Shown here: positions 19,791-35,586 of the stretch, piece after piece
Layout of the letters: each line of letters opens with the position of its first letter
Position numbering within the stretch: position 1 is the first letter of the stretch
Origin: Buttiauxella izardii
GTDB taxonomy: Bacteria; Pseudomonadota; Gammaproteobacteria; Enterobacterales; Enterobacteriaceae
Direction of reading: 5' to 3'
DNA length: 64,000 nucleotides
Assembly (NCBI RefSeq): GCF_003601925.1
Contig: NZ_QZWH01000006.1
Coordinates: 248,001 to 312,000, forward strand
Position numbers and translations under genes: made by a program
The notes under the pieces: model-generated
Seen by the model: only the letters and a program-made list of their open reading frames with translations
Database searches by the model: none
Told to the model about the DNA's origin: nothing

Positions 19791-20957
19791 CTACAACGCG
19801 CGAGCTATTTTCTCACCCGCCCGGCGTGCGGTTGCTGGCAAAATACTTGCCGTTGCCACATAGCCATCAGGATCGAGACAGCGATCCCGCTCCAGCGCCT
19901 GCTCAATAATTTCTGCATCCCAGTAGATTTTTTTACGATGATCGCCCTGCGTAGTTAGCGTCGCTTCCATCACGCCATCAAGCGCACGATATCTGCGCCA
20001 GCTATTGGCAGGCACTGAAATCACCGAACCTTCTTGCGCCACAATCGTCACTTCTTCGCCAGGCCGGTTCCACGTCACTTCCAGCGTGCCTTTGAACACC
20101 ATCAATACCTGAACATCCGGGCAGCTATGCAGGCCGACGCGGTTTTCATTCTGAATGCGCAACCACTCCACCGAGAAGCCGTGGGGATTAATAATCGGCG
20201 GCGTATTATGTAAATCTTGCGAAATACCGTAGCCAATCACCGGGGCGATTTCCCCACCGTGACCCGGCAGAACGGAATCCAGCAGCGCGTTGGTTGACCA
20301 TTTCCGCTGCTCGCCCGTCACCGCTCGCTGGCTCATTTCCTCAACCGAATAATCGCGCAGCGCGGCGATATGTTCCGCACCCAGTGGCTGCAACAAGTCG
20401 GCTTCGTCAGGGACTTTTGCCCCGGCCTCGACATCAATCAGCATATTGTCGCGGCTCAGATAAAGGCCATATTCACGCGCGGCTTCCAGAATCGACGGAT
20501 GCCAGATAATCCCGCCGGTATTGTTGCCGCCAAGTACCGTGAACACCATGCCGCAGGTATCTGTTGGGCTGACGTTAGTAAAACCACGGAAAATCCACGT
20601 CGGGATCGACAAAATCGCAGGCGCGCTAAATTCCGCCTGATGTTCGCCATTAGCGCCCCAGCGGAAGCGCCAGCTCCCTTCATGAATCAAAAACACTTCC
20701 GCCGTGAAATGCAGATGCAGGTTGTTGGTCACGCCTTTAGGCATCGCCGCCGCACCGATATTAAAGCCGTGCGGCTCGGGAATATTCACCACTTGCGATG
20801 CCGATTGCGTCACGCCGGGGCCAATAAAGGAATAGTTCTGTTTGAGGTGCGAACCCGGCAGTTTGCAGTCAATAAACGCCACGCTACAAGAAACACGGTC
20901 TTCCCGGCGTACCAGGCGGCGTTGGGCTTCTTCCTGGGTCAGAGTGATATTTTGCAT
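19791..20957 (-). CDS. Bicupin protein of the catabolic island
   Basis: This is a 388-residue protein with two cupin domains. The N-terminal cupin contains a canonical metal-binding pattern (NLHLHFTAEVFLIHEGSWRF: two His and a Glu). The C-terminal cupin (VQVLMVFKGTLEVTWNR) has lost most of the His ligands (GLHSCPDVQ). Bicupins include dioxygenases, isomerases and decarboxylases, so the reaction is open. The Met at 20957 is preferred because ATGGAGAACAAT precedes it; an in-frame ATG at 20969 overlaps the aldolase stop. Last gene of a five-gene leftward operon (dehydrogenase, SDR, hydrolase, aldolase, cupin). Confidence 0.82.
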   Translation of the reverse strand: MQNITLTQEEAQRRLVRREDRVSCSVAFIDCKLPGSHLKQNYSFIGPGVTQSASQVVNIPEPHGFNIGAAAMPKGVTNNLHLHFTAEVFLIHEGSWRFRWGANGEHQAEFSAPAILSIPTWIFRGFTNVSPTDTCGMVFTVLGGNNTGGIIWHPSILEAAREYGLYLSRDNMLIDVEAGAKVPDEADLLQPLGAEHIAALRDYSVEEMSQRAVTGEQRKWSTNALLDSVLPGHGGEIAPVIGYGISQDLHNTPPIINPHGFSVEWLRIQNENRVGLHSCPDVQVLMVFKGTLEVTWNRPGEEVTIVAQEGSVISVPANSWRRYRALDGVMEATLTTQGDHRKKIYWDAEIIEQALERDRCLDPDGYVATASILPATARRAGEKIARAL

Positions 20958-20968
20958 ATTGTTCTCCA

Positions 20969-21760
20969 TTAATATCCAGATGCGCCACTGGCTGGCGGGG
21001 TTTCACCTCGTGCGGCGGCGATTGCAGTGCGTGAAGCGCTGCCGAGTTGCATCACGTCATTCGCCGGGGTCACAAAGTTGAACCCTTGCGCAATGCGGTT
21101 TGCGGCGGCTTGCCCGGAGGTACAAAAAATCCCGGCGAGCTTGTGATGAACGCGGCAACGACTGAGCACTAACTCAATGGCCGCCAGCATTTCCGGGTGC
21201 TGCGATTCAGCACTCGCACTGCCCGTGAGGGTTAAAGACAGGTCGTTCGGCCCGATAAACACGCCATCCAGCCCGTCGGTATCGAGAATCGCATCGAGGT
21301 TTTGCAGCCCTTCGCGGGTTTCAATCATCGCCAGCGTCAGAATTTCTTCATTGGCATACTGCGGGTAATCTTTGCCGCCGTATAAAAGGGCACGCGCCGG
21401 GCCAAAAGAACGGTTGCCGAGCGGCGGGTAGCGACAGGCTGAAACAAACTGCTGCGCTTGTTCAGCCGTTGAAATCATCGGGCAGATAATTCCCCAGGCT
21501 CCCGCATCAAGCAGGCGCATAATTTGCGCCGGTTCGTTGGTATTAACGCGCGCCAGCGGAGTGGCAGGCGTTGCGGAAATCGCCTGCATCATCGACAGCG
21601 CGCTGGCGAAATCAATCATCCCGTGCTGCATATCGACTGTGACCGAATCATAGCCCTGATGGCCGACGATCTCGGCGCTGTAGCCAGAAGGGATCGCCAG
21701 CCAGCCATTAATAATCGGTTGCTGCTGGCGAAAGGCCGCTTTAAGCGGATTTTTTCTCAT
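20969..21760 (-). CDS. HpcH/HpaI-family class II aldolase
   Basis: This 263-residue metal-dependent aldolase is of the type that cleaves 2-keto-3-deoxy acids or 4-hydroxy-2-ketoacids to pyruvate and an aldehyde. Landmarks are VDMQHG, the Arg in LARVNTNEP, the metal-ligand Glu in AMIETREGLQNL, and the metal-ligand Asp and GPNDLS segment (GVFIGPNDLSLTLTG). The start overlaps the hydrolase stop as ATGA, and its stop overlaps the possible upstream cupin start. Pyruvate formation suggests that the pathway ends in central metabolism. Exact substrate unknown. Confidence 0.85.
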   Translation of the reverse strand: MRKNPLKAAFRQQQPIINGWLAIPSGYSAEIVGHQGYDSVTVDMQHGMIDFASALSMMQAISATPATPLARVNTNEPAQIMRLLDAGAWGIICPMISTAEQAQQFVSACRYPPLGNRSFGPARALLYGGKDYPQYANEEILTLAMIETREGLQNLDAILDTDGLDGVFIGPNDLSLTLTGSASAESQHPEMLAAIELVLSRCRVHHKLAGIFCTSGQAAANRIAQGFNFVTPANDVMQLGSASRTAIAAARGETPPASGASGY

Positions 21761-22488
21761 GAAGCTGACTCCTGTATCCAGTTGCGCATGGCGATTGCCA
21801 CTAATTGCGGTGATTCAAGGGGTAAGAAATGGCCGCTGTCCGGGAGCGTTATCCAGCGGGCATTTGGCGCAGCGCTTGCCACCGCCTGATGATGTTGCGG
21901 GGTACAAATGGCGTCATAAGCGCCGTTGATGATGAGAATCGGTGATGTAAAGGCAGCCAGCGCTGAACGATGATCATCGCGGGTAATCGCGACTTCCGTC
22001 TGGCGTGCAAAAACGTCGATGCCGCATTCCTCGGCCATTTTTACAATCGTTTGGTGAAGCGCCGCGTCATCCAGACGATGCGGCGCAACATACTTCGGCC
22101 ACAGATTTTTGGTGAGCCACGGTGTGATCCCCAGGCTTGCCGCTTCCTTTATTGCTGCCCTGCGCGTGGACGCGTTAGCGGGTAAATCACGCAGCGGATT
22201 CACAGACAGCAACGCCAACCCGGCAATACGCTGCGGGGCCAGCGCCACCATTTGCAGGGCGACCATCGCCCCGAGTGAAAATCCCGCCAGGCAAAAACGC
22301 GGCGGTAACACTTCCAGCAATTGCGTTGCCAGCGCATGAGCGGAATCACCCCCGCTGAGAGTGACGCAACTATAATGCGCGACATTCAGCTGCTCGATGA
22401 GCGGCTGCCAAAGCCGCCCGTTGCACAGCGTTCCGCCAAGCAAAATCAGCGGCGCGTCATGATTTTCCAACAAAGGCGCTGTATTCAT
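21757..22488 (-). CDS. Alpha/beta hydrolase of the catabolic island
   Basis: This 243-residue alpha/beta-hydrolase fold protein has the oxyanion-hole region LLGGTLCNG, a nucleophile elbow GFSLGA, the acid segment INGAYDAICTP and the catalytic His in DSGHFLPLE. It resembles enol-lactonase and meta-cleavage hydrolase types; ring-opening of a lactone is a reasonable guess. The start at 22488 overlaps the SDR stop as ATGA; a start four codons earlier (22500) is possible but not needed. Confidence 0.83.
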   Translation of the reverse strand: MNTAPLLENHDAPLILLGGTLCNGRLWQPLIEQLNVAHYSCVTLSGGDSAHALATQLLEVLPPRFCLAGFSLGAMVALQMVALAPQRIAGLALLSVNPLRDLPANASTRRAAIKEAASLGITPWLTKNLWPKYVAPHRLDDAALHQTIVKMAEECGIDVFARQTEVAITRDDHRSALAAFTSPILIINGAYDAICTPQHHQAVASAAPNARWITLPDSGHFLPLESPQLVAIAMRNWIQESAS

Positions 22489-23249
22489 GTTGCCGTCCAC
22501 CCGCCGTCGACCATTAATGACGTGCCGGTAATCAGCGCCGCAGCAGGCGAGGCGAGAAATACAATCGGCCCCATCACGTCTTCCAGCGTTCCCAGCCGTT
22601 TCAGTTTGATGTTATCCAGCACGTATTGGCTGAAAGCAGGATCGGCCAGATTGGCGCGTGACAGTTCAGTCTCAATAAACGTCGGGCACAACGTGTTGAC
22701 GCGAATACCCGATTCGCCAAGCTCCAGCGCCATGGTTTTGGTTAACCCTTCGAGGGCAAACTTCGACGCGCAATACACGCTGCGCTGCGGCCCGCCGACA
22801 TGGCCCATCTGCGAAGAAATATGAATGATGGAACCGGCCACCTGGCGCAGCTTCATACTGCGAGCGACTTGCTGACTGACAAAGAAAGTGGCCCGCAAAT
22901 TGAGCGCCATCACCGCATCAAAATTCTCTTCACTCACTTCAAGGAACGGCTGATGGCGCGCAAGCCCGGCGCTGTTTACCAGAATGTCGAAACCCGGCAA
23001 CTCCGCCAGCGTTTTGCCAACCTGCGCGGTATCGGTAATGTCCAATTCCACGCTGTTTAAGTGCAGCCCTTCGGCGGCGGCACTCTTGACCGCCTGCGCC
23101 AGTTGCTCGGGCTGGCGGGCGATAATCCACACCTGCGCACCCGCCCGTGCCAACGCAATGGCTGCCGCAAAGCCGATACCACGGGAGCCGCCAGTGACTA
23201 ACGCCCGTTGGTTATCAAGACGAAATTCTGGAGTGCGTGGAAGCGCCAT
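22485..23249 (-). CDS. SDR-family NAD(P) oxidoreductase
   Basis: This 254-residue classical short-chain dehydrogenase has the cofactor motif TGGSRGIGFA, NSAG (ILVNSAGLARHQ), the catalytic Ser in IIHISSQMG and YxxxK in YCASK. It resembles gluconate 5-dehydrogenase-type enzymes, which oxidise secondary alcohols of sugar acids. The start at 23249 follows the upstream dehydrogenase stop by two bases; a longer in-frame start at 23387 would lie inside that gene. Part of the leftward operon. Confidence 0.87.
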   Translation of the reverse strand: MALPRTPEFRLDNQRALVTGGSRGIGFAAAIALARAGAQVWIIARQPEQLAQAVKSAAAEGLHLNSVELDITDTAQVGKTLAELPGFDILVNSAGLARHQPFLEVSEENFDAVMALNLRATFFVSQQVARSMKLRQVAGSIIHISSQMGHVGGPQRSVYCASKFALEGLTKTMALELGESGIRVNTLCPTFIETELSRANLADPAFSQYVLDNIKLKRLGTLEDVMGPIVFLASPAAALITGTSLMVDGGWTAT

Positions 23250-23251
23250 GA

Positions 23252-24583
23252 TTACGACGCCTTCTCGATATCCACCGCCGGAACGGTGCCAGCGTAGGGC
23301 ACATGCTGATTGCCGTAGCGGCGCACGCGGATATTGGCTTGTTCTGCATGGCCGGAAAAACCTTCCAGTTGGCACAGGCGCGAGCAATAGCTGCCAATTT
23401 CCGCTGAGGCTTCATCACTCAGCACTTTCTGCCAGGTGCAGGTTTTCATGAATTTGCCGACCCACAATCCACCGGTATAACGCGCGGCTTTTTGCGTTGG
23501 CAGCGTGTGATTGGTGCCGATGACTTTATCGCCGTACGCGACGTTAGTCCGTGGCCCGAGGAACAATGCGCCAAAGTTGGTCATATTGGCGAGGAACCAG
23601 TCATCGCGGTTAGTCATCACCTGCACATGTTCGGAAGCGATGCGGTCGGCTTCTTGCAACATTTCTTCGTAGCTGTCGCAAACAATCACTTCGCCGTAAT
23701 CGCGCCACGCCTGGCGGGCAATTTCTGCTGTAGGGAGTTGCGTCAGCAGGCGTTCCACTTCACGCATCGTTTCCTGCGCCAGTTTCAGGGAATTGGTCAG
23801 AAGAATCGCTGGCGTCGTCACGCCGTGTTCGGCCTGGCCGAGCAGGTCGGTGGCGCACATTTCAGCATCGACACTTTCATCGGCAATCACCAGCGTTTCC
23901 GTTGGCCCGGCAAACAGGTCGATGCCCACGCGTCCAAACAGCTGGCGTTTGGCTTCTGCCACAAACGCGTTGCCAGGGCCGACCAGCATATCGACAGGCG
24001 CGATGGTGTCGGTGCCAAGCGCCATCGCGCCTATCGCCTGAATGCCGCCGAGCGCGTAGATCTCGGTCGCGCCCGCCATTGCTTGTGCGGCAACAATTGC
24101 CGGGGCAGGGCGGCCATTAAACGGCGGTGCACAACTAATAATGCGTGAACAACCGGCGACGTTGGCGGTAATAATCGACATATGCGCGGAGGCTAATAGC
24201 GGATATTTACCCCCAGGGACATAACAACCGACGGCATTAATGGGGATGTTTTTGTGACCGAGAATAACACCGGGGCGCGTTTCAATTTCTAAATCCGTCA
24301 GGCAACCTTTTTGCGCCGTGGCAAAGTTGAAAACTTGCTGCTGAGCGAATTCAATATCTTTAATATCCTGGCGGCTTAATTGTTTGATGCAGGCATTAAT
24401 TTCACTTTGCGATAAACGATAATCCTGGCGGTCGTAATTATCGAACTTAATGGATAATTCACGAATCGCTGCGTTACCGCGTTGTTCAATATCGGCCAGC
24501 GTATTTTCAACCACAATACTGATTTGTTTATTGGCTTGCTGACGTTCAGATAATGATTTACTGGTTTTTAAATATTGCGCCAT
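23252..24583 (-). CDS. Histidinol-dehydrogenase-family enzyme (paralogue 1)
   Basis: This 443-residue member of the HisD family also includes the sulfopropanediol dehydrogenase HpsN. Zinc and catalytic signatures are retained: GQAEHG (Gln/His ligands), SEHVQ (catalytic Glu-His), [13 protein letters not shown] (Asp ligand) and [10 protein letters not shown] (His ligand). HisD-type enzymes oxidise a primary alcohol to a carboxylate in two NAD+-dependent steps. No other his genes are nearby, so histidine synthesis is unlikely. The start at 24583 has AAGGAGAG upstream. First gene of the leftward operon; a second homologue lies at 29596. Confidence 0.85.
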
Positions 24584-24677
24584 GACGCTCTCCTTTCCTT
24601 TTATATGCGTAACTGTCCCGCCCGGCAAAGCGGGTGAGTGGGTCGTATCGGATTAAATAAAGTGTGACGTATTAAAT

Positions 24678-25928
24678 TTACTGGCTGGTCTTATTGGCAT
24701 ATTCCTGTGCGGATGAAACTTTCGGCATATTTCTTTGCGCCGCTTTAACCTGGCGCAATTCCACACTGCGAGCCGCCATTGGTGTCAGGAACGCGGCAAC
24801 CACACAAAGCGCACCAATCACCAGATAACCTGAGGACAAATTAATATGTTGCAGCATCAAGCCCATGGCGACAGGGCCAATAAACATGCCGACGGAATAA
24901 ATGGTCTGGAACAAGCCCATGCGTGTGGATTGCTCATCTTCAACCGTGTTCACCACGCTCAAGGACATAAACACCGCGAACGCCATGCCGAACGAGAAAC
25001 CCGCCATCGCCTGTAAGAAATAAATGAGAGTCATATTAGTGGTGAACGGGATGCCAATACTGGAAATCACTTGCAGAATAATGCCGATCACTGCGGTGTT
25101 CACCAGACCCAGGCGCTTATAAAACACCGAACTACACAAGGCGATAGCCAGCGCGTAGAAAATCAGGTGGATATTACTGAGTAAAGTCAGGATCCCCGCT
25201 TTTGCGCCGAGCTGCTGGGCATAAATTGGCGTCAGCGTATCGCGGGTAGCGAACGGCACGAGAATAACAATCGTCGCCAGTAAACCGATAAACCATACAG
25301 ACGGATCGGCCAGTTGGCGTTTTGCGCTGGTCAGGCAGGCTTTCAGAGTGGGTGCGCGGGCGGCATCGTGAATTTCTTTAATGCGGAAGGTCAGGACAAG
25401 TGCGAGCAAGGCCGCAACGCTTGAGACAAAATAGCCGATGCTTTTGTCAAAATAGTGAATCAACAACCCGCCGATACAGTTGCCAAGGAACACGCCCAAC
25501 GGCCCGGCCAGAGCCAGTAAAGCAACGGCAGCAGGCGCTTCTTTCTTATCAAAGTAACGGATAAACAGGATGTTATAGAGAACCCAGGTCGCTGCCGTAA
25601 AACCATCGGCCGCTTTCGCCAGATACAACGTGGTGGCGTTAGGTTCAAAATAGGCAATCGGCCAGGTCACCAGCGGCAACAGCAGGCTGAACTGGATAAA
25701 GATTTTTCTACTTTTCACCACATCGGACAAAATGCCAATCGGGAAGCGCACGAACAACGTCGCTAATCCGCTGGCACCCATAATCATTCCCACCACTTCA
25801 GGCTGCATTCCTTCGCTGATTAACATCGGGGCGAGGAAGGCATCAATACTGTGAATGCAAATGAAGAACAGTACGCTAATGGTAAAAAACAGTCTGACTT
25901 CGGATCGACTAAATAGTGCACGAAACAT
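24678..25928 (-). CDS. MFS transporter of the catabolic island
   Basis: This 416-residue protein has about 12 hydrophobic segments of the major facilitator superfamily. The loop 2-3 region (LFVRFPIGILSDVVKSRKIF) has the expected Gly/Asp/Arg pattern, and a long central loop separates two halves. It is probably the importer for the island's substrate. The Met at 25928 follows AGAGGT and is preferred over an in-frame start at 25991 that would add 21 unconserved residues. It is divergent from the LacI-type regulator gene and lies upstream of the leftward enzyme genes, with a 94-base gap before them. Confidence 0.85.
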   Translation of the reverse strand: MFRALFSRSEVRLFFTISVLFFICIHSIDAFLAPMLISEGMQPEVVGMIMGASGLATLFVRFPIGILSDVVKSRKIFIQFSLLLPLVTWPIAYFEPNATTLYLAKAADGFTAATWVLYNILFIRYFDKKEAPAAVALLALAGPLGVFLGNCIGGLLIHYFDKSIGYFVSSVAALLALVLTFRIKEIHDAARAPTLKACLTSAKRQLADPSVWFIGLLATIVILVPFATRDTLTPIYAQQLGAKAGILTLLSNIHLIFYALAIALCSSVFYKRLGLVNTAVIGIILQVISSIGIPFTTNMTLIYFLQAMAGFSFGMAFAVFMSLSVVNTVEDEQSTRMGLFQTIYSVGMFIGPVAMGLMLQHINLSSGYLVIGALCVVAAFLTPMAARSVELRQVKAAQRNMPKVSSAQEYANKTSQ

Positions 25929-26059
25929 GGTGGTGAACCTCTTAATAATTAGTGGGTTATAACCAATCAAGTACGGCATTAACCGGTGCATTCCTTTGTC
26001 GCGAACTCGCGTTACCGGTAAAACTGACGGCGTATTTTTATAGTATGTATACGTCCTAT

Positions 26060-26071
26060 GAATACGTATTC
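26060..26071. promoter_or_regulatory. Candidate LacI-family operator GAATACGTATTC
   Basis: A perfect 12-base palindrome centred on CG, the usual centre of LacI-family operators, lies in the divergent MFS/regulator interval. A second palindrome, TTGCAT-ACGC-ATGCAA, lies at 26147-26162, closer to the regulator gene. Either could bind the island's regulator. Assignment rests on symmetry and position only. Confidence 0.5.
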
Positions 26072-26222
26072 AAAAATTGAAGTTACGAAAAGGTTTCAAT
26101 TTTGTAAAGGTCGATGGTGTAAATGTGAAAAAAATAATTTTGTCTGTTGCATACGCATGCAAAGTTGGTGTAAGTATAAAAAACAGGCATTCCATTGGGA
26201 TGCGGAGAAGGAATACCAAAAC

Positions 26223-27293
26223 ATGAAACGTAAGACTTTTGGCCCCGTGACTTCGCAGCAAGTGGCGCAAGTGGCGGGGGTATCACAATCGGCGGTATCG
26301 CGGACCTTCACACCGGGGGCGAGTATTTCGCCAGCCACCCGTGAAAAGGTGCTGAAGGCGGCGCGTGAGTTGGGTTATCGGCCAAATGCCATTGCCCGCT
26401 CGCTGAACACCGCTCGTTCGCGCATCGTTGGCGTGGTGATGTCCTATTTTGATAACCAGTTTTACCCGCAGGTGCTGGAAGCGTTGGCGCAAAAACTCGA
26501 TGAGCTGAACTACCACCTGCTGCTGTTTGTCGGCGACCGCGACGGTAACGTCGACCGGATTTTTGACCAGATCATGCAATACCGTGTGGATGGCATTGTG
26601 CTGGCCTCGGTATCGCTTTCGGTTGAGCTTTCAGAAGAGTGTGTCGCCGCCGGGATCCCGGTGGTGCTGTTTAATCGCAGTGAAGAAAATGCCACGGCGT
26701 CGAGCGTGAATACCGATAACGAAGCCGCCGCCCGGCAGATTGCCGAGTTTTTGCTGGCGGGAGAACACCAGCGTTTCGCTTATGTTGCCGGGCTGTCGGA
26801 TTCTTCGGTCAACGTGGCGCGCCAGAACGGGTACATCAGCACTTTAGAGCGTCATGGAATCGAGAATGTGCGCGTGGTGCAGGGCGATTACGATGCGAAA
26901 ACAACGGCAAAAGCGGCATGGGAACTCTTTTCAGCACCGAATCCACCGGATGCCATTTTTGCCGCCAACGATCATATGGCGCTCACCGTAATGGACGTCG
27001 CCCGTTTTGAATTTGGCCTGCGCATTCCTGAAGACCTTTCGGTGATTGGTTATGACGATACCGGCCCGTCCGGCTGGCCGTCTTACGCGCTGACTTCCGC
27101 ATCGCAGCCGGTGGATGCCATGGTCAGCGCCACGCTAGCGCTGCTGATGAAACAAATTGAAAGTGAAAACATTGAGCCGGAGCAGGTTGTGGTTCCCGGC
27201 GTGCTGGTGGTGCGACACTCCGCAAGGCGTCCACACTCTGGCGTTATCGAAAAAGACGGGCTGTTTTTATTCCAGCCGCAGGAGGTTGAATGA
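26223..27293 (+). CDS. LacI-family transcriptional regulator
   Basis: This 356-residue regulator has an N-terminal helix-turn-helix (TSQQVAQVAGVSQSAVSRTF, residues ~8-28), the hinge helix region (RPNAIARSLNTARSRIVGVV) and a periplasmic-binding-protein-like effector domain with the SVIGYDDTGPSGWPSYAL segment. The Met at 26223 fits family length; the frame is open from 26058 but that part has no LacI homology. Its stop overlaps the next start as ATGA, so the regulator and the SnoaL-like protein are probably cotranscribed. It probably controls both arms of the island. Confidence 0.9.
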   Translation: MKRKTFGPVTSQQVAQVAGVSQSAVSRTFTPGASISPATREKVLKAARELGYRPNAIARSLNTARSRIVGVVMSYFDNQFYPQVLEALAQKLDELNYHLLLFVGDRDGNVDRIFDQIMQYRVDGIVLASVSLSVELSEECVAAGIPVVLFNRSEENATASSVNTDNEAAARQIAEFLLAGEHQRFAYVAGLSDSSVNVARQNGYISTLERHGIENVRVVQGDYDAKTTAKAAWELFSAPNPPDAIFAANDHMALTVMDVARFEFGLRIPEDLSVIGYDDTGPSGWPSYALTSASQPVDAMVSATLALLMKQIESENIEPEQVVVPGVLVVRHSARRPHSGVIEKDGLFLFQPQEVE

Positions 27294-28261
27294 CCAGGTT
27301 GCCGGGCTTTAGCCCTCAGTTTGATTCTATCCAGCAGTTTATTTTGACGCTGACCCATGTGGTGTGGGAGCAAAAAGACATCGGCCAACTGGCGGATTTC
27401 TACGCAACACCAGTGGTGTTTAACACCCCGGAAAGACAGCTCAATGACCTCTCACAGTTTATGCGCCTGACACTCGAAGCGATGCACAGTTTCCCGCAAC
27501 GCACGGTATTAACTGAAGATATTCTCTGTTCTCATTCGCCGCAGTCGGAGTATTACGCCGCCCAGCGTACCGTGGCGTGTATTCAACATCAGGGCGAAGG
27601 GTTCTTTGGTAAGCCGAGCGGCAAATCTATCTGGGTGCGCACCTGGGCCGACCGGGTGTGCGCGCAAGGCGCGGTGCGTCAGGAATGGTTGCTGCAAGAC
27701 CGCGCCGCCATCATTTTGCAAACTGGTGTGGAAGTGCGTGATTTTGCTCGCCAGTTGGCGGATGCACGCCGCGAAGCGGGGCTGGAAAATATCAGCGCTG
27801 AAGAGATGGACGCCCGTTGGGCTGGCGGCCCGGAAGGCGATGACGTTGACGGCCCATTAGCGGGGCTGGTGGAACGTTATTTGTCGATGTGGGCTGGCGG
27901 AAACAGCGGCGTGGTGCCGGGGCTTTATCATCCCGCCGCCACATTACACGGGCCGGGGCATGTTTTATGCACGGGCGAGCAGGATATTGGCGGGTTCTTA
28001 TCGGGTTATCGCGCATCGTTTGCCGACAGCGAAACGCATCTGCACCATTTAGTTGTGCGACGGGATGCGAACGAACCGGTTCGCCTGTCGCTGCGTTGGT
28101 CGCTATTAACCTGGCATGACGGTTATGGGAAGTTTGGCACACCGACACGACGCCCGGTTTCTATTACCGGTATTAGCCAACTGGAATTACGCGACGGTTT
28201 AATTATTCGCGAATATTTGGGTGTCGATGAATTAGCGATTTGGTCACAGATTTTTAATTAA
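27290..28261 (+). CDS. Double SnoaL-like (NTF2-fold) protein 1
   Basis: This 323-residue protein is built of two NTF2/SnoaL-like repeats (about 1-150 and 185-323). Corresponding ends of the repeats read FGKPSGKSIWVRTWADRV and FGTPTRRPVSITGISQLE, followed by EWLLQD and REYLGVDE. The fold is used by polyketide cyclases, dehydratases and isomerases, and it may also only bind ligands. No catalytic Asp/His pair can be assigned confidently. It overlaps the regulator by four bases. Related to the 379-residue protein at 28453. Confidence 0.75.
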   Translation: MTRLPGFSPQFDSIQQFILTLTHVVWEQKDIGQLADFYATPVVFNTPERQLNDLSQFMRLTLEAMHSFPQRTVLTEDILCSHSPQSEYYAAQRTVACIQHQGEGFFGKPSGKSIWVRTWADRVCAQGAVRQEWLLQDRAAIILQTGVEVRDFARQLADARREAGLENISAEEMDARWAGGPEGDDVDGPLAGLVERYLSMWAGGNSGVVPGLYHPAATLHGPGHVLCTGEQDIGGFLSGYRASFADSETHLHHLVVRRDANEPVRLSLRWSLLTWHDGYGKFGTPTRRPVSITGISQLELRDGLIIREYLGVDELAIWSQIFN

Positions 28262-28273
28262 TCGCAATTTATT

Positions 28274-28297
28274 AATCATGATTTATTAATCATGATT
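28274..28297. promoter_or_regulatory. Tandem AATCATGATT palindromes
   Basis: The perfect palindrome AATCATGATT occurs twice (28274-28283 and 28288-28297) within a 14-base direct repeat of TTATTAATCATGAT, in the 191-base gap before the second SnoaL-like gene. It may be a regulator site or an AT-rich coincidence. A partial third copy, TTATTAATCATG, lies at 31057-31068. Confidence 0.35.
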
Positions 28298-28452
28298 TTT
28301 TAATTACTGACAGCGGCGGGGAGTCATTCCCCGTCAAAATATCTGAACAGAGCAATAAAGATTATCGCCATTTGCAGGTGAGGGATATTCCTATCCATGA
28401 ATAATGTGCGCTGACAATTTTTGTCGCGCATTCAAATAACGCAGGAGGTCAT

Positions 28453-29592
28453 ATGTCTTCAACTGAAATAACCAATAAAACGCCAGTCGCTTCAGAGAAA
28501 AGCAATACCAAATCCACACGCGATGAACCTGTATTACAAGTCGAACGCCGCGACTTTATTGATCTGGTGCCGGAGAAACGCCCACGCGTGCAATCATTAC
28601 GTGGCTTTGATGATTGCTATACCGATATTGTTGATTACATCGTGCGCTGCACCCATAAAATATGGGACGAACGCGACGTGGGTTTAATTTACACCCACTA
28701 TACGCACAACTGCGTTTTATATAACGCGCTCGGCACCATGTATAACCGCGAGCAAGTGGTGCAGGATACTTTGCAGCGTTTAATTGCCTTCCCGGAACGT
28801 CGCGGCATGGCGACTCAGGTTATCTGGAATGGTAACGACGTTGACGGCTTTTACACATCCCACCTGGTGACCGGCACGGGCCGCCACACGCAATACAGCC
28901 ATTTGGGCAAACCGACCAACCGCACCTTTGTGACCCGCACCGTCGCGGATTGCATGATCCACGAGAACAAGATTTATCGCGAATGGGTGGTCAGCGACAA
29001 CATGGCGATGATGCGCCAGTTGGGACTTGATACCGATGCGATAGCTTACGGCATGGCGAAAGAGCAGTTTGATAAAGGCTTCCGCGTGACCGACATCGGT
29101 GAAAACCGTCGCATGTTGGGGCAATACCCGCCGGAAATGGAATGCGACGTTTCTATCGCTCACACCGATACCGAAGAGCAGTGCCTGCGCTGGCTGCATG
29201 AAATTTATAACCGCCGCATGCTCGGTAAAATTAAAGACGTTTATGCGCCAAACGTGCAGTGGCATGGCCCATTAATGAAAGAGCTGTACGGCCAGGCGGC
29301 GGTGATCCACCAGACGCTGGCGCTGATTGGCATGATCCCGGACGGCGCGTGGATGCCGCAGCACATCTGTTCTAACCCTTGCGAAGAAGGCGGCACCAAA
29401 GTGGCGGTGCGCTGGATTATGGAAGGCCATCACCTGGGTTACGGTGAACTGGGCAAACCAACCGGTGAACGCCTGTTCGTGATGGGCATGTCCCATTACC
29501 ACATCGTCAACGGCAAAATCGTCGATGAATGGGTGGTTTACGACCATCTGGCACTGCTGGCACAAATCAAATTGGGACAAATGGAGGAGTAA
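28453..29592 (+). CDS. Double SnoaL-like (NTF2-fold) protein 2
   Basis: This 379-residue protein has an unstructured N-terminal ~45 residues and two SnoaL-like repeats. Their matching cores are HLGKPTNRTFVTRTVADCMI/KIYREWVVSDNMAMM and ELGKPTGERLFVMGMSHYHI/KIVDEWVVYDHLALL, an evident internal duplication. It shares the same repeat with the 323-residue protein upstream. Strong AGGAGG lies at 28442-28447. It ends three bases before the second histidinol-dehydrogenase-like gene, so the two are presumably coupled. Function unknown; a cyclase/isomerase/dehydratase role in the island's pathway is inferred. Confidence 0.78.
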   Translation: MSSTEITNKTPVASEKSNTKSTRDEPVLQVERRDFIDLVPEKRPRVQSLRGFDDCYTDIVDYIVRCTHKIWDERDVGLIYTHYTHNCVLYNALGTMYNREQVVQDTLQRLIAFPERRGMATQVIWNGNDVDGFYTSHLVTGTGRHTQYSHLGKPTNRTFVTRTVADCMIHENKIYREWVVSDNMAMMRQLGLDTDAIAYGMAKEQFDKGFRVTDIGENRRMLGQYPPEMECDVSIAHTDTEEQCLRWLHEIYNRRMLGKIKDVYAPNVQWHGPLMKELYGQAAVIHQTLALIGMIPDGAWMPQHICSNPCEEGGTKVAVRWIMEGHHLGYGELGKPTGERLFVMGMSHYHIVNGKIVDEWVVYDHLALLAQIKLGQMEE

Positions 29593-29595
29593 CAG

Positions 29596-30903
29596 ATGGG
29601 CACGATTTCTGAAGCTGATGTTGAGTTTATCAAGCGCCCGCAGGGGCAAGATGTTCAGGCCGACCGCACGCTAACCGCGACGGTGCAAAATATTATTGAC
29701 CAGGTGCGTGAACGAGGCGATGCCGCGCTGCGCGATTATTCGGCCAAATTTGATAAAACGACACCGGAGAAATTTGAAGTCTCAGAGCATGAAATCGCCA
29801 GTGCGTTAGCGGCGCTTGACCCGCAAACCCGCAAGGACAGCGAGTTTGCCATTGCGCAAGTGAAACGCTTTGCCGAGGCGCAGTTGGCCACCATGCAGCC
29901 GCTGGATATCGAAACGCTGCCGGGCGTGCATTTAGGGCATCGCATTATCCCGATTCAAACCGTGGGCTGTTATGTGCCAGGCGGGCGCTACCCGATTTTA
30001 TCCGCCCCGGTGATGTCCATCGTCCCGGCGGTGGTCGCGGGTTGCGATGAAATTATTGCCTGCCTGCCACCGGGCGCGCATCCGGCGATGATCGCTATTT
30101 GCCATCTTGCAGGGGCGCATCGCATCTTTAAAGTCGGCGGCGCGCAGGCGATTGCCGCCATGGCCTGGGGAACGGAATCTGTTCCGGTGGTAGATAAAGT
30201 CGTCGGGCCGGGAAATGCCTTCGTTAATGAAGCGAAACGCCAGGTGTTTGGCAAAGTCGGCATTGACGCGTTGGCGGGGCCGAGCGAGATTTATGTGATT
30301 GCCGATGACAGCGCCGACCCGCGCATTTTGGCTGCCGACCTGCTGGCTCAGGCCGAGCATGATGTGCATACCCGTGTCGGCATGGCGACCACCAGTGCGC
30401 AAATTGCCCGCGCCACACTTGCAGAAATTGAGCGTCAGCTAACCAACTTGCCAACGGCTGCCACCGCGGGAGAAGCCTGGAAGCGGCAGGGCGAAATTGT
30501 TATCTGTCGCGATGAAGAGCAACTGATCGCCTGGGCCGATCATATGGCAACCGAACATTTGCAAGTGCACACCCGCGACCCACACGCCACGGCCAGCAAA
30601 ATTCGCAATTATGGTTCGTTGTTTATTGGGCAAAACGCCAGCGTGGTGTTCTCCGACAAATGCTGCGGAACCAACCATACGTTACCGACCATGGCAGCCG
30701 CGCGTTATACCGGCGGTTTGTGGGTTGGCGCCTACGTAAAAATTTGCACCCATCAGTGGATTGACGACCACGGCATTGCGGCGGTTGCCCAACCCGCAGT
30801 GCGCCAGAGTCGCACCGAAGGAATGCAGGCGCATCGCCGTGCTGCTGAAATTCGTTTGTTACCCGACAGTATTGATGCAATAACCAACGGGGAGCGTGAT
30901 TAA
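29596..30903 (+). CDS. Histidinol-dehydrogenase-family enzyme (paralogue 2)
   Basis: This 435-residue HisD-family protein is roughly half identical by eye to the paralogue at 23252. It keeps [37 protein letters not shown], the zinc-ligand AQAEHD, the catalytic TEHLQ, and [12 protein letters not shown]. Its final His-containing segment is [10 protein letters not shown]. Sulfopropanediol dehydrogenase HpsN belongs to this family and is one comparison, but no sulfonate genes (for example SuyAB) accompany it. It ends the rightward arm and is followed by an inverted repeat. Confidence 0.85.
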
Positions 30904-31078: not shown

Positions 31079-31393
31079 ATGCTGTCACTGGAAATGGAAG
31101 AAGATGTTGTCCTGCGGGTAAAAGGCATGGAAAAAATGCTTGAAGGAATTGTCCGCGAACTCAAAGCCAACAAGGGCGTTGTCGATGAGTTTATACGGGA
31201 TGACATTGCAAGGTTCCGGCACTGTTCAAAAGATGTCATAACACACCATACTCAGGTTTCGCGCAGCGTCCGTAAAAGACTGGAAGACGTAACCATCCAT
31301 TCTCAAAAACGTGTACGTAAAACGGCGCGGAGTAATTTGTTATATGGTGTTTTGTGCGGAATGTCTTTCTGCATGTTACTTCAACTGATGTAA
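31079..31393 (+). CDS. Small protein with C-terminal membrane anchor
   Basis: This is a 104-residue protein: an N-terminal acidic and helical region with scattered charges, a basic middle (SVRKRLEDVTIHSQKRVRKT), and a single hydrophobic segment at the extreme C-terminus (LLYGVLCGMSFCMLLQLM). The topology suggests a tail-anchored cytoplasmic coiled-coil-like protein. I do not recognise a family. A convincing intrinsic terminator follows, which supports a real transcription unit. No strong ribosome-binding site is seen. Confidence 0.55.
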   Translation: MLSLEMEEDVVLRVKGMEKMLEGIVRELKANKGVVDEFIRDDIARFRHCSKDVITHHTQVSRSVRKRLEDVTIHSQKRVRKTARSNLLYGVLCGMSFCMLLQLM

Positions 31394-31410
31394 TGAATAT
31401 CAGTGTATTG

Positions 31411-31439
31411 GGGAGAAAGTTAACTTTCTCCCTTTTTTA
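31411..31439 (+). terminator. Intrinsic terminator
   Basis: GGGAGAAAG and CTTTCTCCC form a 9-base-pair stem with a 4-base loop followed by TTTTTT, ending the transcription unit of the small anchored protein. The convergent binding-protein gene ends 46 bases further on. Confidence 0.88.
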
Positions 31440-31484: not shown

Positions 31485-32399
31485 TTACATTTTTCGAGTC
31501 AGGTATTTATACATTTCAGCGGTCAATGGAATATGCAGGTTGATATTTTTGTCAGGCAAATTGCTATTAAACCATTGGTTGAATAATTGTTTGAAATCTG
31601 CGCGATTGAATCGACTATCAAGACTCGCATCAACCACACTTTTTAATTCTTCATCGTCATGGCGCATCATGATGCCCAGATCTTGTGGCGCACCGAGCGC
31701 GAGTGCTGAAATCTGGTAACTCGCTGGATCTTCGCTGCTTTCCACCAACTCCTTCAGTGAAACTTCGTTCATCGCTGCCGCAAAACTCTTACCGTTACTC
31801 AGAGCTTCAAAGGACTCTTGCATGGTTGGTTGACTCAGAATCAACAGATTAAGTTCCTGCAAACGGTTCAGCCTATTAATATTCACTAAGTCTGAGGTGC
31901 CTTTTGTCACGCTAATTGTTCTACCCGCCAAATCAAAAGATGAGTAAATATTAGTGCTGATACGCGTGGCAAATCGAGTATGGACTGATAAGTAATGGTG
32001 AGAGAATAAAACGATTTTTTGACGCTTCACGGTATCGGTATTGACTGAACAATCCATATCAATAACATTATGGTTAAGCATGGCGGTGCGCATAGTTAAT
32101 GGCGCTGGCACATAATTAACCACCAGAGTGTTAATGTGTAATTTGTTTTTTAGCGACTCGGTGACGTCTTTGCACAAGTCAATAACGTATCCTACTACAT
32201 GCCCGTCGCTGGTTTTATAAGCATAGGGCGGGGCGTCGCGATAGCCAATATTAATCAATTTATGGCTGGCAATTCTCTCCAGCGTCGACATCTGTGGCTC
32301 CGCATACACCCCTGTGGCGAAACAAGTTAATAAAAACCCTAGCGCGTAATTCATAAGTTGTTTCTGTTTCATGTGTCGACTTGTCTGATTTATCGTCAT
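31485..32399 (-). CDS. GltI-like periplasmic amino-acid-binding protein 1
   Basis: This protein of up to 304 residues belongs to the SBP_bac_3 family (GltI/DEBP-like). A signal peptide ends near YAEPQ; a Met ten codons in (32372) is an alternative start. Family features include INIGYRDAPPYAY, VGYVIDLCKDV, the MDCSVNTDTVKRQKIVLFSH segment typical of glutamate/aspartate binding proteins, and a C-terminal FNQWFNSNLPDKNINL. No ABC permease or ATPase gene is adjacent. It is the third gene of a GGDEF/EAL operon, so a sensory role is more likely than transport. The preceding gene ends 29 bases before its start. Confidence 0.82.
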   Translation of the reverse strand: MTINQTSRHMKQKQLMNYALGFLLTCFATGVYAEPQMSTLERIASHKLINIGYRDAPPYAYKTSDGHVVGYVIDLCKDVTESLKNKLHINTLVVNYVPAPLTMRTAMLNHNVIDMDCSVNTDTVKRQKIVLFSHHYLSVHTRFATRISTNIYSSFDLAGRTISVTKGTSDLVNINRLNRLQELNLLILSQPTMQESFEALSNGKSFAAAMNEVSLKELVESSEDPASYQISALALGAPQDLGIMMRHDDEELKSVVDASLDSRFNRADFKQLFNQWFNSNLPDKNINLHIPLTAEMYKYLTRKM

Positions 32400-32428
32400 T
32401 TTTATGGGGCGAAAAATAGCGAAAAGGG

Positions 32429-33346
32429 TTAATAAGAGTAAAACGCTGCCGATGAAATAGAATTTTCTAATTCGGGCGACAACGGTAAATTAAGGGTAAT
32501 GCCTTCAGGCATAATCGGTTGCATAAACCATTTGTTATAAATTTTGATGAAATCTGCGCTTTGCATCAGCTGCTTTAGAGAGCCGTTGATTAGCCCAATA
32601 AAAGCTGCGTTGCCTTTTTGCATGGGAAAAGCAATCGGCAGACGCGGGCTGAGAGAGTCTTTGGAAATGACAAACTCTTCCGGATGTCCAGAAAGCGCAA
32701 TTTGCGCAAGGAGCAAAACATCGCTGGAAACTATCGCCGGGGTTCCGCCGCTTTCCAGCTCTGAAAAAGCCTTAATATTGTCCGTGCCGAGGTCAATATT
32801 CAGTGATAACTGATGTTGAGAATTGGCTTCCTGAAGATGCCGGACGAAAACGGTACCACTTTTCACGATAACCGTGTGGCCGTTGAGCTGGGTAATATCG
32901 CTAATATCGTCTTCTTTACGGGAAACATAACGAGTGGCCGAGAAGAAATAGGGTTCCGAAAAGGTCACTATTTTTTGCCGCTCCGGGGTGTAGATAGTCG
33001 GAATGCAGCCCATATCCACGCTTTTGTTTTTGATGGTTAAAAATTGCGTAGCCGTGCTCACCGGTACCCATTTTATGTGTAACCCCGGCAGGCTCAGTTG
33101 TTGTTTAAGCATGTCGATAAGTTGCTTGCAGATATCTATAGAGTAGCCACGGGGCTGTTTATCTTCGACATACGAATAAGGAAACACATCGGTCTGATAA
33201 CTCAGAGTGATGGTTTTGGTTTGTGCGAGGCGAGACAACACCTCATCGGCCCGGCTGGTTGATGGAGTCAGCATGCCGATACTGAGCAGCAGGGCAGCAG
33301 ACAATGAGAACAGTGTTTGATACCAATGATTAATGAAAAGTGTCAT
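32429..33346 (-). CDS. GltI-like periplasmic amino-acid-binding protein 2
   Basis: This 305-residue SBP_bac_3 protein has a signal peptide (residues ~1-33, ending SRA). Conserved elements are VFPYSYVEDKQPRGYSIDIC, VDMGCIPTIYTPERQKIVTF and IYNKWFMQPIMPEGITLNLP. It is paralogous to the protein encoded by the next gene. Its ATG overlaps the stop of the GGDEF/EAL gene (ATGA), implying coupled synthesis. No transport genes are present, so it may present a bound ligand to the sensor domain of the GGDEF/EAL protein. Confidence 0.82.
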   Translation of the reverse strand: MTLFINHWYQTLFSLSAALLLSIGMLTPSTSRADEVLSRLAQTKTITLSYQTDVFPYSYVEDKQPRGYSIDICKQLIDMLKQQLSLPGLHIKWVPVSTATQFLTIKNKSVDMGCIPTIYTPERQKIVTFSEPYFFSATRYVSRKEDDISDITQLNGHTVIVKSGTVFVRHLQEANSQHQLSLNIDLGTDNIKAFSELESGGTPAIVSSDVLLLAQIALSGHPEEFVISKDSLSPRLPIAFPMQKGNAAFIGLINGSLKQLMQSADFIKIYNKWFMQPIMPEGITLNLPLSPELENSISSAAFYSY

Positions 33347-35586
33347 GTTGATTCCATTCCATCGTGCTCCAGTTCTGCCATAACGCTTATGTTTTCAACG
33401 GCCCGACCAAAGTAATAGCCTTGTGCCGTCATATTTTCCTCGCCCAGAGAAGCCAGGAATTCATATTGCTGTTTTGTTTCTACCCCTTCGGCGGTGACCT
33501 TCAAACCGCGTTTTAACGCGTAGCGCGCTAACATGCTGACCAACGCTTGTCGGTCCTCACATTTATCCAGCATATCAATCAATGGACGCGCAATTTTGAT
33601 GTGGCTAAACGGGAAAATAATCAGGTAGTCCAGCGTCGCAAAGCCGGTGCCAAACCCATCAAGCACAATCCCCACACCGAGTGCCTGAATGGCATTAAGA
33701 ATCGGCAACGTGACTTCGCGGTCGAGAGGTTCAGATCCGGTTATTTCAATTTCCAGACGCGCAGGTTCCAGGCCACTTTCTTGTAATGCGTTCCGAATGG
33801 TGTCCAAAATTCCTGGGTGGCGTAACTGATGCGGGGAAACATTCACCGACACGGTTTTCGCCACGGGCCAGTTCGCTGCATCCTGACACGCGCTGTGAAT
33901 GAGCCATTCGCCCAATTTGGCGATAAGCCCGATATCTTCAGAAACAGAAATAAAATGATGGGGTTGCAGCAGGCCACGAAGCGGATGTTGCCAACGCACC
34001 AGCGCTTCATAACCTGTTGTTCGGCAATGATTGAGGCTGACGATTTTTTGATAATGCAGGAAGAACTCATTGTTTTTAATGCCGTTCTCAATTTCCTGGC
34101 TAAAGAGCAGGTTATTGGACGGGTTCATCGTCATGCCGTGAGAATAAAAATGGAAGCAGTTCCGCCCGTAACTTTTCGAGGTGTATAACGCGAGATCGGC
34201 GTGGGTGAATAAATCCTCACGGGTATTTCCATGGTGCGGTGCACAGGCAATACCGATGCTGCTGCTGATGGTAAAGGTGTTCCCGCTACAGGTAAAAGGT
34301 GCGCTTAGCGCGGCGAGCACTTTTCTGGCCAATGTTTCGGCCTCGGGAAGGGAGTCGTGATGCACATGTTGCAGAATGGCAAATTCGTCCCCGCCGAGGC
34401 GTATCGCCATATCTTTCTCGCCGACCAGGGCGCAAAGACGTGCGGCGGTAGCAATCAGTAACTCATCGCCGACGACGTGACCCCAGGTGTCATTGACCGG
34501 TTTGAAATTGTCTAAATCAATCAACAGCAGGTTGAAGATACTGCCTTCGGTACGCAATTTTATCAGCCGGTCGTCAATAGAATTGCGGTAAGCAACCCGG
34601 TTCGGTAACAGCGTCAGGGAATCATGATGCGCCATGTATTCCATTTTTTGCGCCATTTCCTGCATTCGTTGCAGATAACCCCGGTCAACCATTGCCACGC
34701 GTAACTTTTCAATTGCCCGAGCCAGCTCGCCAATTTCATCGTCCTGATCCTGGAATGGCGTCATCTGGTCGGTTTTTTCATCGGCAATCAGCGTGACGGT
34801 TTGAATCAGGCGGGGAACCGGGCGGAACAGGTTGCGCACCAACCAGTTGACCACAATGACGGTTGCGCCGAGCAGTAAAATCAGCATCAGCAGGGTATGC
34901 ATCAAAAGCTGATTATGCGTGGCAAACAGGGCGTCGCGTTCGCCGATACTGCTGACTACCGCACCGATAAGTTTCCCGGACGGGTCAACAATGGGAATCG
35001 AGCCAACGAAATACTCTTTGCCATCAATACTGGCAAAGCCGCAGTAATACTTCTCTAATGCGGAGCGATTCGACGTGTCTGCCACCGTGGTGATTGTTTG
35101 TGGCTTACCGGAGGTGTTATGGAAATCAGTAAAACCGTGTTTCTCGTCGTACAGCAATAACCAGGTGGGATTGTGGGTTTGCGTCGACACCAGGGTGAGC
35201 ATATCGTCCGGGTTAAAACCGGTCTGGATCACCGTTTCGTCATCACTCAAAGGGCGTTCGGACTCAATAGAGATCACCTGGCCTTCGTGATTAGATTTCA
35301 CTGTCACCGAGGTGTAGATATTGCGAATGATATAACTGGTGATTTGCGAATTGGTGGCGGCTTGTTTAAACCACTGTTCATGGGAGATGCGATTGACTTC
35401 AAAAACACCGGCACCTGAACCCACACCGTAAGCAATTAAAATGCCTAACATCAAATAGATAGCGACTTTACCAGTAATCGAATGATACCAGTTGTAACCC
35501 CGACGTAATGCGGGATTTTGTTCGCGGGGCGATTCAGCTTCACGTTGAATGAGCTCTTTATCAACCATTTTTCTATTTGTACTCAT
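33343..35586 (-). CDS. Membrane GGDEF/EAL protein with degenerate EAL
   Basis: This 747-residue protein has a first membrane helix at ~34-57, a periplasmic CACHE-like sensor (~60-225), a second helix (~228-250), a HAMP-like linker, a GGDEF domain and a C-terminal EAL domain. The GGDEF motif is intact (IRLGGDEFAIL) but the usual RxxD inhibitory site reads GEKD. In the EAL domain the EAL Glu (GYEALVRW), Asn (VNVSPHQL), Lys (HIKIARP), Glu (AEGVET) and Gln (MTAQGYYFG) remain. The metal-binding DDFG reads DGFG and KIDR reads KIAR. A diguanylate cyclase with a weak or regulatory EAL domain is the likely activity. Confidence 0.87.
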   Translation of the reverse strand: MSTNRKMVDKELIQREAESPREQNPALRRGYNWYHSITGKVAIYLMLGILIAYGVGSGAGVFEVNRISHEQWFKQAATNSQITSYIIRNIYTSVTVKSNHEGQVISIESERPLSDDETVIQTGFNPDDMLTLVSTQTHNPTWLLLYDEKHGFTDFHNTSGKPQTITTVADTSNRSALEKYYCGFASIDGKEYFVGSIPIVDPSGKLIGAVVSSIGERDALFATHNQLLMHTLLMLILLLGATVIVVNWLVRNLFRPVPRLIQTVTLIADEKTDQMTPFQDQDDEIGELARAIEKLRVAMVDRGYLQRMQEMAQKMEYMAHHDSLTLLPNRVAYRNSIDDRLIKLRTEGSIFNLLLIDLDNFKPVNDTWGHVVGDELLIATAARLCALVGEKDMAIRLGGDEFAILQHVHHDSLPEAETLARKVLAALSAPFTCSGNTFTISSSIGIACAPHHGNTREDLFTHADLALYTSKSYGRNCFHFYSHGMTMNPSNNLLFSQEIENGIKNNEFFLHYQKIVSLNHCRTTGYEALVRWQHPLRGLLQPHHFISVSEDIGLIAKLGEWLIHSACQDAANWPVAKTVSVNVSPHQLRHPGILDTIRNALQESGLEPARLEIEITGSEPLDREVTLPILNAIQALGVGIVLDGFGTGFATLDYLIIFPFSHIKIARPLIDMLDKCEDRQALVSMLARYALKRGLKVTAEGVETKQQYEFLASLGEENMTAQGYYFGRAVENISVMAELEHDGMEST

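Follow-up and report, generated by a model that had tools for sequence, protein, structure and literature searches.

Most transcription factors of the LacI family recognize an even palindrome centered on CG and control a local regulon, as far as the available passages of the survey of the family indicate (PMC4052901). HpsN, of the hpsRNOUP-suyAB cluster, has the fold of histidinol dehydrogenase (HisD) and catalyzes a NAD-dependent four-electron oxidation of a primary alcohol; its His126, in the motif spanning residues 122–126, distinguishes it from HisD (PMC11382572, available part). SwHKA, an HpcH/HpaI aldolase of Sphingomonas (Rhizorhabdus) wittichii RW1, accepts a range of pyruvate analogues, hydroxypyruvate among them, a property attributed to aromatic residues that replace a conserved leucine, and its Arg120 contacts D-glyceraldehyde; the available part of the paper presents it as a biocatalyst and mentions no physiological role or native substrate (PMC10099721). 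Here we describe an 11-kb island at positions 19791–30903 of a 64,000-nucleotide stretch (the window; positions 248,001–312,000 of contig NZ_QZWH01000006.1) from the 4.77-Mb genome of Buttiauxella izardii, a plant-associated gut-type bacterium, in which a LacI-type regulator, two dehydrogenases of the HisD/HpsN superfamily and an aldolase of the SwHKA type occur together.

The island consists of ten open reading frames (ORFs), assigned to families with Pfam and NCBIfam, in two operons that diverge from one LacI-type region. All ten lie where the original prediction, an earlier reading of this stretch, had placed genes of these families. The reverse strand encodes a major facilitator superfamily (MFS) transporter, the first HisD-like enzyme (HisD1), a short-chain dehydrogenase/reductase (SDR), an alpha/beta hydrolase (abH), the aldolase and a bicupin, and the forward strand the regulator, two tandem SnoaL/NTF2-like proteins (SnoaL1 and SnoaL2) and the second HisD-like enzyme (HisD2). 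The island is real, coherent and under-described; it is a conserved cassette of known enzyme families, whose combination and regulon appear to be new. The claim that no described pathway has this combination holds in that no paper on this gene set is among the open-access literature matches listed, a scope that leaves subscription journals and preprints mostly outside. We read the locus as a putative catabolic cassette under local control, with two modules governed by one LacI-type regulator, and consider the chances of this reading, with the steps proposed below, to be about even.

Relatives were collected by a profile search with an alignment of SnoaL2. The best 80 of 261 coding stretches were retained and a locus from a Pantoea dispersa plasmid was added, giving 30 enteric loci, one of them (L018) in a record titled Chryseobacterium, and 51 other loci, mostly but not only from Alphaproteobacteria (L050 and L058 are labeled otherwise). 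A further locus, L109, carries no annotation and was set aside. Gene presence was counted gene by gene at an E value of 1e-15 with half coverage. Because some loci are cut by contig ends, the counts are lower limits, and because of these thresholds those of the hydrolase are lower than in an earlier, less strict count. The queries were imperfect (HisD1 lacked 11 C-terminal residues and carried 15 extra N-terminal ones; the SDR and the hydrolase carried 13 and 4 extra N-terminal residues), which affects the identities little, and ORF starts in the loci of relatives were assigned mechanically.

Comparison of islands with the same gene set, which the original prediction had proposed, shows all ten window genes, in unchanged order, in 21 of the 30 enteric loci. 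Counted singly, SnoaL1 is present in 30 of these loci, LacI and MFS in 29 each, HisD2 in 28, the HpcH aldolase in 26, the SDR, hydrolase and cupin in 25 each, HisD1 in 23 and an amidase in 15. The 51 other loci contain LacI (39), HisD2 (36), HisD1 (34), the SDR (32), the cupin (31), a sugar-type ABC ATPase (29), an amidase (28), an RraA-type protein (25), a MetE-like protein (12), the hydrolase (10) and the HpcH aldolase (2). Enterics mostly keep to one gene order, and the versions found elsewhere (Alphaproteobacteria, Deinococcus and Priestia) are rearranged.

Close to the host, SnoaL2 is 99% identical to a protein of B. agrestis and HisD1 99% identical to one of B. gaviniae. Within the host family, SnoaL2 has a match in 20 of 295 genomes, of which 13 are strong (at least 85% identity) and the rest weak or partial; two of the three other genomes of the genus that were listed have a strong match and one has none. 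A near-identity search of the E. coli collection gave no match. An ORF that we take to be pykF flanks all four Buttiauxella islands and none of the 26 other enteric ones, whose left flanks are short; this restricted neighborhood suggests that the cassette is mobile. The record titled Chryseobacterium holds an enteric-type partial cassette whose SnoaL2 is 92% identical and whose HisD2 falls beside a Citrobacter record in the tree, and is probably a mislabeled or mixed contig.

The regulator gene (26223–27293, forward strand) encodes a helix-turn-helix (HTH) that begins right after the ATG at 26223, making this the most likely start in place of the previously assigned 26058. A pattern scan of the region between MFS and LacI revealed an operator-like palindrome, O1 (TGAATACGTATTCA, 26059–26072), and, 89 bp away, a near-palindrome, O2 (TGCATACGCATGCA, 26148–26161), which is kept in relatives. 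These two CG-centered sites are the sole exact matches to TGMATACGNATKCA in the host genome; one mismatch is found at 16 other places, and a reversed control pattern gives 6 matches versus 21. The chance expectation of a slightly wider pattern in the window is 0.04. Like the local sugar regulons of the LacI family, the island thus combines a LacI HTH gene with CG-centered even palindromes near both operons, and its operator and gene set are not among the available passages of the LacI survey (PMC4052901).

The pair of sites recurs at a spacing of 88–90 bp in 29 of 29 enteric loci scanned, L029 being left out because no MFS gene was found there. Across the 936,463 bp of the 51 other loci, the wider pattern TGMATWCGNATKCA has 81 matches in 37 loci, where an order-1 model predicts 0.29. 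The cupin (20) and HisD1 (14) are the genes that these matches most commonly precede, followed by the interval between HisD2 and SnoaL2 (13); some also lie between HisD2 and abH. With the upstream zone set at −350 to +120 bp relative to the mechanical start, 14 of 34 HisD1, 20 of 31 cupin, 23 of 35 HisD2 and 22 of 54 SnoaL2 genes have one, and 66 of the 81 sites fall in these zones. In five further stretches the operator precedes an ABC importer operon (three) or a HisD1-like gene (two), and two exact copies occur in each of the Deinococcus and Priestia cassettes and on a Klebsiella michiganensis plasmid. Among 14 whole genomes, 11 have every exact match within one stretch of less than 15 kb; the other three have further sites, and both of those inspected (in G681 and G677) are close to HisD-like and LacI genes. 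The control gave no match in any of the 14. The motif SQSxVSR is present in the HTH of 22 of 22 aligned cassette regulators, and another LacI protein in the window has SQQTVSR. The shared operator pattern and the common HTH motif support a single regulon, in agreement with the proposal that a catabolic gene set diverges from the LacI region, and action of the regulator at O1 and O2 between the divergent operons is a well-supported prediction. Repression, with looping between O1 and O2, would be the expected mode of control. Outside its main cassette, Devosia riboflavina (L190, 7257–10436) has a second exact operator upstream of a further HisD1-like gene (75% identical), with a LacI gene close by.

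Both HisD-like proteins, HisD1 (23252–24583, reverse strand) and HisD2 (29596–30903, forward strand), belong to the HisD/HpsN superfamily and are 45–47% identical to each other. The nearest solved relative of HisD1 is HpsN; that of HisD2 is (R)-2,3-dihydroxypropane-1-sulfonate (DHPS) dehydrogenase, with HpsN and the E. coli-type HisD close behind. Equivalents of HpsN Glu318, His319, Asp352, Lys353, Gln248 and His251 are found in both window proteins and in all relatives (54 of 54 and 63 of 63). The catalytic Glu-His pair is therefore kept together with the zinc ligands Gln, His and Asp, the comparison covering these three of the four zinc ligands (the fourth is His411 in HpsN). The HisD-type alcohol-to-acid oxidation put forward in the original prediction is thus supported, the residues examined being intact. 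The proximity to HpsN raises a sulfonate pathway of the HpsN/HpsO/HpsP kind as an alternative, the more so as the hps cluster also includes further oxidoreductases and an MFS carrier (PMC11382572, available part). The diagnostic His126, however, is replaced by Leu in HisD1 and Ile in HisD2 and is found in none of 117 relatives (in the HisD1 group of 54, Leu in 39 and Met in 15; in the HisD2 group of 63, Ile in 27 and Leu in 36), the partner genes differ from those of hpsRNOUP-suyAB, and no sulfolactate lyase family is among the Pfam matches of the island. Because His126 is missing, we reject a DHPS pathway and leave it next to no probability.

A role in histidine biosynthesis was also rejected, because the host has a separate HisD, which obtains the best score in the HisD search, and because the Lys353 position, Tyr in the host's own HisD, is Lys in HisD1, HisD2 and all 117 relatives. 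Judged by motif, HisD1 and HisD2 are a third kind of enzyme, neither HisD nor HpsN. A quick tree places them in separate clades (55 and 63 rows), each with enterics and Alphaproteobacteria, and came with a long-branch warning, so that its long branches may be joined falsely. Both genes are annotated as "histidinol dehydrogenase" in a close relative, and SnoaL2 as "ester cyclase"; with such labels, annotation would miss the pathway.

The aldolase gene (20969–21760, reverse strand) encodes a class II HpcH/HpaI enzyme of the SwHKA type. Swit_5035 of strain RW1 and the solved SwHKA chain are identical over all 250 aligned residues, and Phe210, Ser116, the catalytic His44 and Arg69 of SwHKA are all present in the window protein. 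Among 17 module aldolases, Phe210 is found in 16 (not in Priestia) and Ser116 in 15 (not in Priestia or Ruegeria), whereas E. coli GarL and RhmA carry Leu and Gly at positions 210 and 116. A retro-aldol step to pyruvate, as originally predicted, agrees with a class II aldolase that keeps the catalytic His and Arg; as a product assignment it may be too narrow, given that SwHKA also takes hydroxypyruvate (PMC10099721, available part), and the window enzyme may release hydroxypyruvate and not pyruvate alone. In RW1, the SDR, hydrolase, HpcH/HpaI aldolase and cupin genes are contiguous (Swit_5033–5036), as in the island, with identities to the window proteins of 45% for the aldolase, 37% for the cupin, 32% for the hydrolase and 35% over 171 residues for the SDR. 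Unlike the island, the RW1 row has no adjoining HisD, SnoaL or LacI gene. The cassette thereby places SwHKA, which has been studied for synthesis, in a genomic context.

The bicupin (19791–20969, reverse strand) has an HxHxTxE motif in its N-terminal domain (H85, H87 and E91), and these residues are invariant, together with R128, in 34 sequences including that of the window. Arg128 sits at a position where motif 2 of cupins usually has His. A sequence search returned no solved relative of the bicupin, and its AlphaFold2 (AF2) model has a pLDDT of 90.7. Priestia and Deinococcus have only a short cupin (207 and 219 residues), which aligns to part of the window protein.

A bicupin, a hydrolase and an aldolase form the classical order of ring-cleavage pathways. 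The island could accordingly open an aromatic or heterocyclic ring: the HisD enzymes would oxidize hydroxymethyl groups on the ring, the bicupin would act as a gentisate-type dioxygenase, and the hydrolase and aldolase would finish the degradation. The HxHxTxE metal motif agrees with this possibility, as would the amidase of many relatives if the substrate were an N-heterocycle. The genomic surroundings point the same way in two cases, since a distant cupin relative (33.5% identity over query residues 32–209) lies among aromatic-type genes on a Cupriavidus plasmid, and the RW1 row is near aromatic-degradation genes, beyond transposase genes. Against it, the cupin has no match to a gentisate or other dioxygenase model in NCBIfam at an E value of 0.001 and only the generic Cupin_2 in Pfam, the invariant Arg128 replaces the expected His, the importers of the cassettes are of the sugar type, and the aldolase is of the SwHKA type. 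We regard ring cleavage as unlikely, roughly one of the outcomes in five.

SnoaL1 (27290–28261, forward strand) and SnoaL2 (28453–29592, forward strand) have the SnoaL/NTF2 fold according to Pfam (PF07366/PF12680). The AF2 model of SnoaL2 (pLDDT 86.6) consists of tandem SnoaL domains that match single SnoaL domains in a fold search. No polyketide synthase family is found among the island genes by Pfam. On a Halobellus limi plasmid (L107, 7414–12483), five "ester cyclase" genes stand in a row, adjoining a MetE-like gene and an ABC importer; this is an archaeal relative of the SnoaL layer.

Partial versions of the cassette indicate how it may be built. The Klebsiella michiganensis plasmid carries LacI, HisD1, SDR, MFS, hydrolase, aldolase and cupin genes and has neither SnoaL nor HisD2, and in a genome of the host's order (L146) the arrangement is TRAP importer, cupin, aldolase and hydrolase. 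In Vibrio and Salinivibrio the cupin-aldolase-hydrolase triad adjoins genes of tetronate catabolism: otnK, otnI and an "aldolase" gene, which we take to be otnC; otnK and the "aldolase" gene are also found in Thioclava, with a TIM-barrel gene, and in Ensifer. By Pfam, none of these tetronate genes is among the genes of the window island. Because of the partial sets in Klebsiella, RW1, L146 and Vibrio/Salinivibrio, we infer that the triad is the core, fed by HisD1 and the SDR; SnoaL1/SnoaL2 and HisD2, often with an amidase, would form a second layer. Such partial sets, like the shared operator and the amidase near the cassettes of relatives, had been overlooked in the original prediction, whose interpretation is supported in part.

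The same partial sets would also fit two separate pathways that share only the regulator, with module A (HisD1, SDR, hydrolase, cupin and aldolase) acting on a sugar acid or polyol and module B (SnoaL1, SnoaL2 and HisD2) on an unrelated compound. The Klebsiella plasmid, and RW1 for some of the genes, have module A without module B, and Ruegeria, L153 and L154 have several SnoaL genes, one HisD and a MetE-like gene, with no second HisD in the stretch. Yet HisD1, SDR, cupin, HisD2 and SnoaL2 stand together under the same operator pattern in both Enterobacterales and Alphaproteobacteria, and each of the HisD1 and HisD2 clades spans both classes in the quick tree, subject to the warning given above. 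Two unrelated pathways are in our view as improbable as ring cleavage.

LacI control, sugar-type importers and a hydroxy-keto-acid aldolase favor a polyhydroxylated compound as the substrate of the cassette. Solved structures matched by its ABC binding proteins are in general sugar binders; for most matches of the TRAP binding proteins no ligand could be read from the solved structures. Of the loci compared, 15 of 30 enteric ones and 28 of 51 others have an amidase close to the cassette; Deinococcus has a carbon-nitrogen hydrolase gene there. An amide is suggested by this amidase family, which roughly half of the relatives have. Our best guess is a polyhydroxylated, sugar-like substrate, often with an amide, that would be cleaved to (hydroxy)pyruvate and an aldehyde. 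For homarine as a candidate, no paper among the matches listed concerns such genes by title or start of abstract.

For the cassette of two modules under one regulator, gene content, the shared operator, active-site residues and enzyme classes are read directly from the sequence, and from them we infer an order of steps. The regulator would bind O1 and O2 and probably repress both operons, with release once the substrate or an intermediate appears. Uptake would proceed through the MFS carrier (24678–25991, reverse strand) in the host and through a sugar-type ABC importer in Alphaproteobacteria. Module B, with the amidase in many relatives, would trim the imported compound, HisD2 converting a primary alcohol to a carboxylate with two NAD+. 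Module A would start with a second alcohol-to-acid oxidation by HisD1 and a ketone-forming oxidation by the SDR (22485–23249, reverse strand), continue with hydrolysis of a lactone or ester by the alpha/beta hydrolase (21757–22488, reverse strand) and a metal-dependent isomerization or dehydration in the cupin, and end with an SwHKA-type retro-aldol cleavage to pyruvate or hydroxypyruvate and an aldehyde.

Modification of bioactive compounds is a frequent role of SnoaL, alpha/beta hydrolase and amidase family enzymes. Together with the sub-threshold matches of the MFS carrier to multidrug carriers, this leaves room for detoxification or signal destruction, in which the island would modify a plant or fungal compound without using its carbon. 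The class II aldolase at the end of the sequence, otnK beside the triad in several records and the binding-protein-dependent importers fit nutrient use better, and we consider detoxification improbable, at well below the likelihood of ring cleavage.

Several observations weigh against the proposed cassette pathway. Arg120 of SwHKA is Ala in the window aldolase and Arg in only 1 of the 17 module aldolases, SwHKA itself; because it is not kept, the aldehyde partner may differ from that of SwHKA. Since RraA-type proteins are common in the other relatives (25 of 51) and HpcH aldolases rare (2 of 51), the last step may also differ there. The best structural matches of the bicupin model are seed globulins and oxalate decarboxylases at a TM-score of about 0.5 and thus predict no reaction, and the chemistry suggested for the cupin and SnoaL proteins has the modeled fold as its sole source. 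No exact operator is found in 14 of the 51 other loci or in those of Vibrio, Salinivibrio, RW1 and Thioclava; in Thioclava and RW1 the only site has one mismatch and lies far from the gene row, and Vibrio and Salinivibrio have none even at one mismatch. A consensus scan located no promoter-like site in the divergent region and no excess of such sites over shuffles (8 found versus 11.8 expected). Concerning the substrate, the host genome has no close copy of the amidase (best 37% identity) and may for this reason use a narrower substrate. No glycoside hydrolase was found among 20 neighboring proteins scanned, a result in conflict with the GH127 and GH95 genes beside the Novosphingobium cassette. 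In the Vibrio and Salinivibrio species with TRAP importers next to the triad, these importers would indicate a carboxylate.

Versions of the cassette with the same operator are found in Pseudomonadota, Deinococcota and Bacillota, and its retention under one operator over three phyla suggests a common nutrient that current annotation misses. A broader proposal, which we hold only tentatively and rate somewhat above ring cleavage yet clearly below an even chance, is a widespread, undescribed pathway whose substrate would be a polyhydroxy compound, often an amide, that plants or algae supply in abundance. In sugar-type catabolism, it would employ SnoaL-fold enzymes, a metal cupin, two HisD enzymes of the third type and a hydroxypyruvate-releasing aldolase under one LacI operator. 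If true, it would give the biocatalyst SwHKA a natural role.

The places of the genes in the original prediction were correct, and several starts besides that of LacI required revision. HisD1 starts at 24583, the first ATG of a TTG-started ORF of 458 amino acids (aa), and the SDR at 23249; the MFS gene probably starts at 25928, judging from the median length of its relatives (416 aa). For the hydrolase, the ATG at 22488 has a GTG at 22500 upstream as a possible start. The "many ATGA overlaps" described before hold approximately, with three confirmed (SDR/abH, abH/HpcH and LacI/SnoaL1); the HpcH/cupin junction is TAATG, and the others are gaps, of 2 bp between HisD1 and SDR, 3 bp between SnoaL2 and HisD2, 191 bp between SnoaL1 and SnoaL2, and 94 bp between HisD1, from its corrected start, and MFS. 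The GC content per kilobase is 0.48–0.58 in the island and 0.40–0.55 in the flanks, with no sharp boundary, and a scan of the whole window found no tRNA.

Just past the island, an ORF of 104 aa (31079–31393, forward strand) without a Pfam match is 91–98% conserved in four Buttiauxella loci, and a terminator-like hairpin at 31410–31433 is built on a perfect palindromic core of 14 bp, with a T-rich tail. Next to the plasmid cassette of Pantoea dispersa (L004, 20329–25111), genes for an MFS carrier, an isochorismatase-family protein, an Asp/Glu racemase, a hydrolase and a FAD monooxygenase form a set that, to us, recalls nicotinate-type degradation. In the window, positions 31485–35586 (reverse strand) beside the island encode two tandem family-3 solute-binding proteins and then a protein of 747 aa, in whose translation we recognize what we take to be GGDEF and EAL motifs; together they look like a periplasmic-sensing trio for cyclic di-GMP (c-di-GMP).

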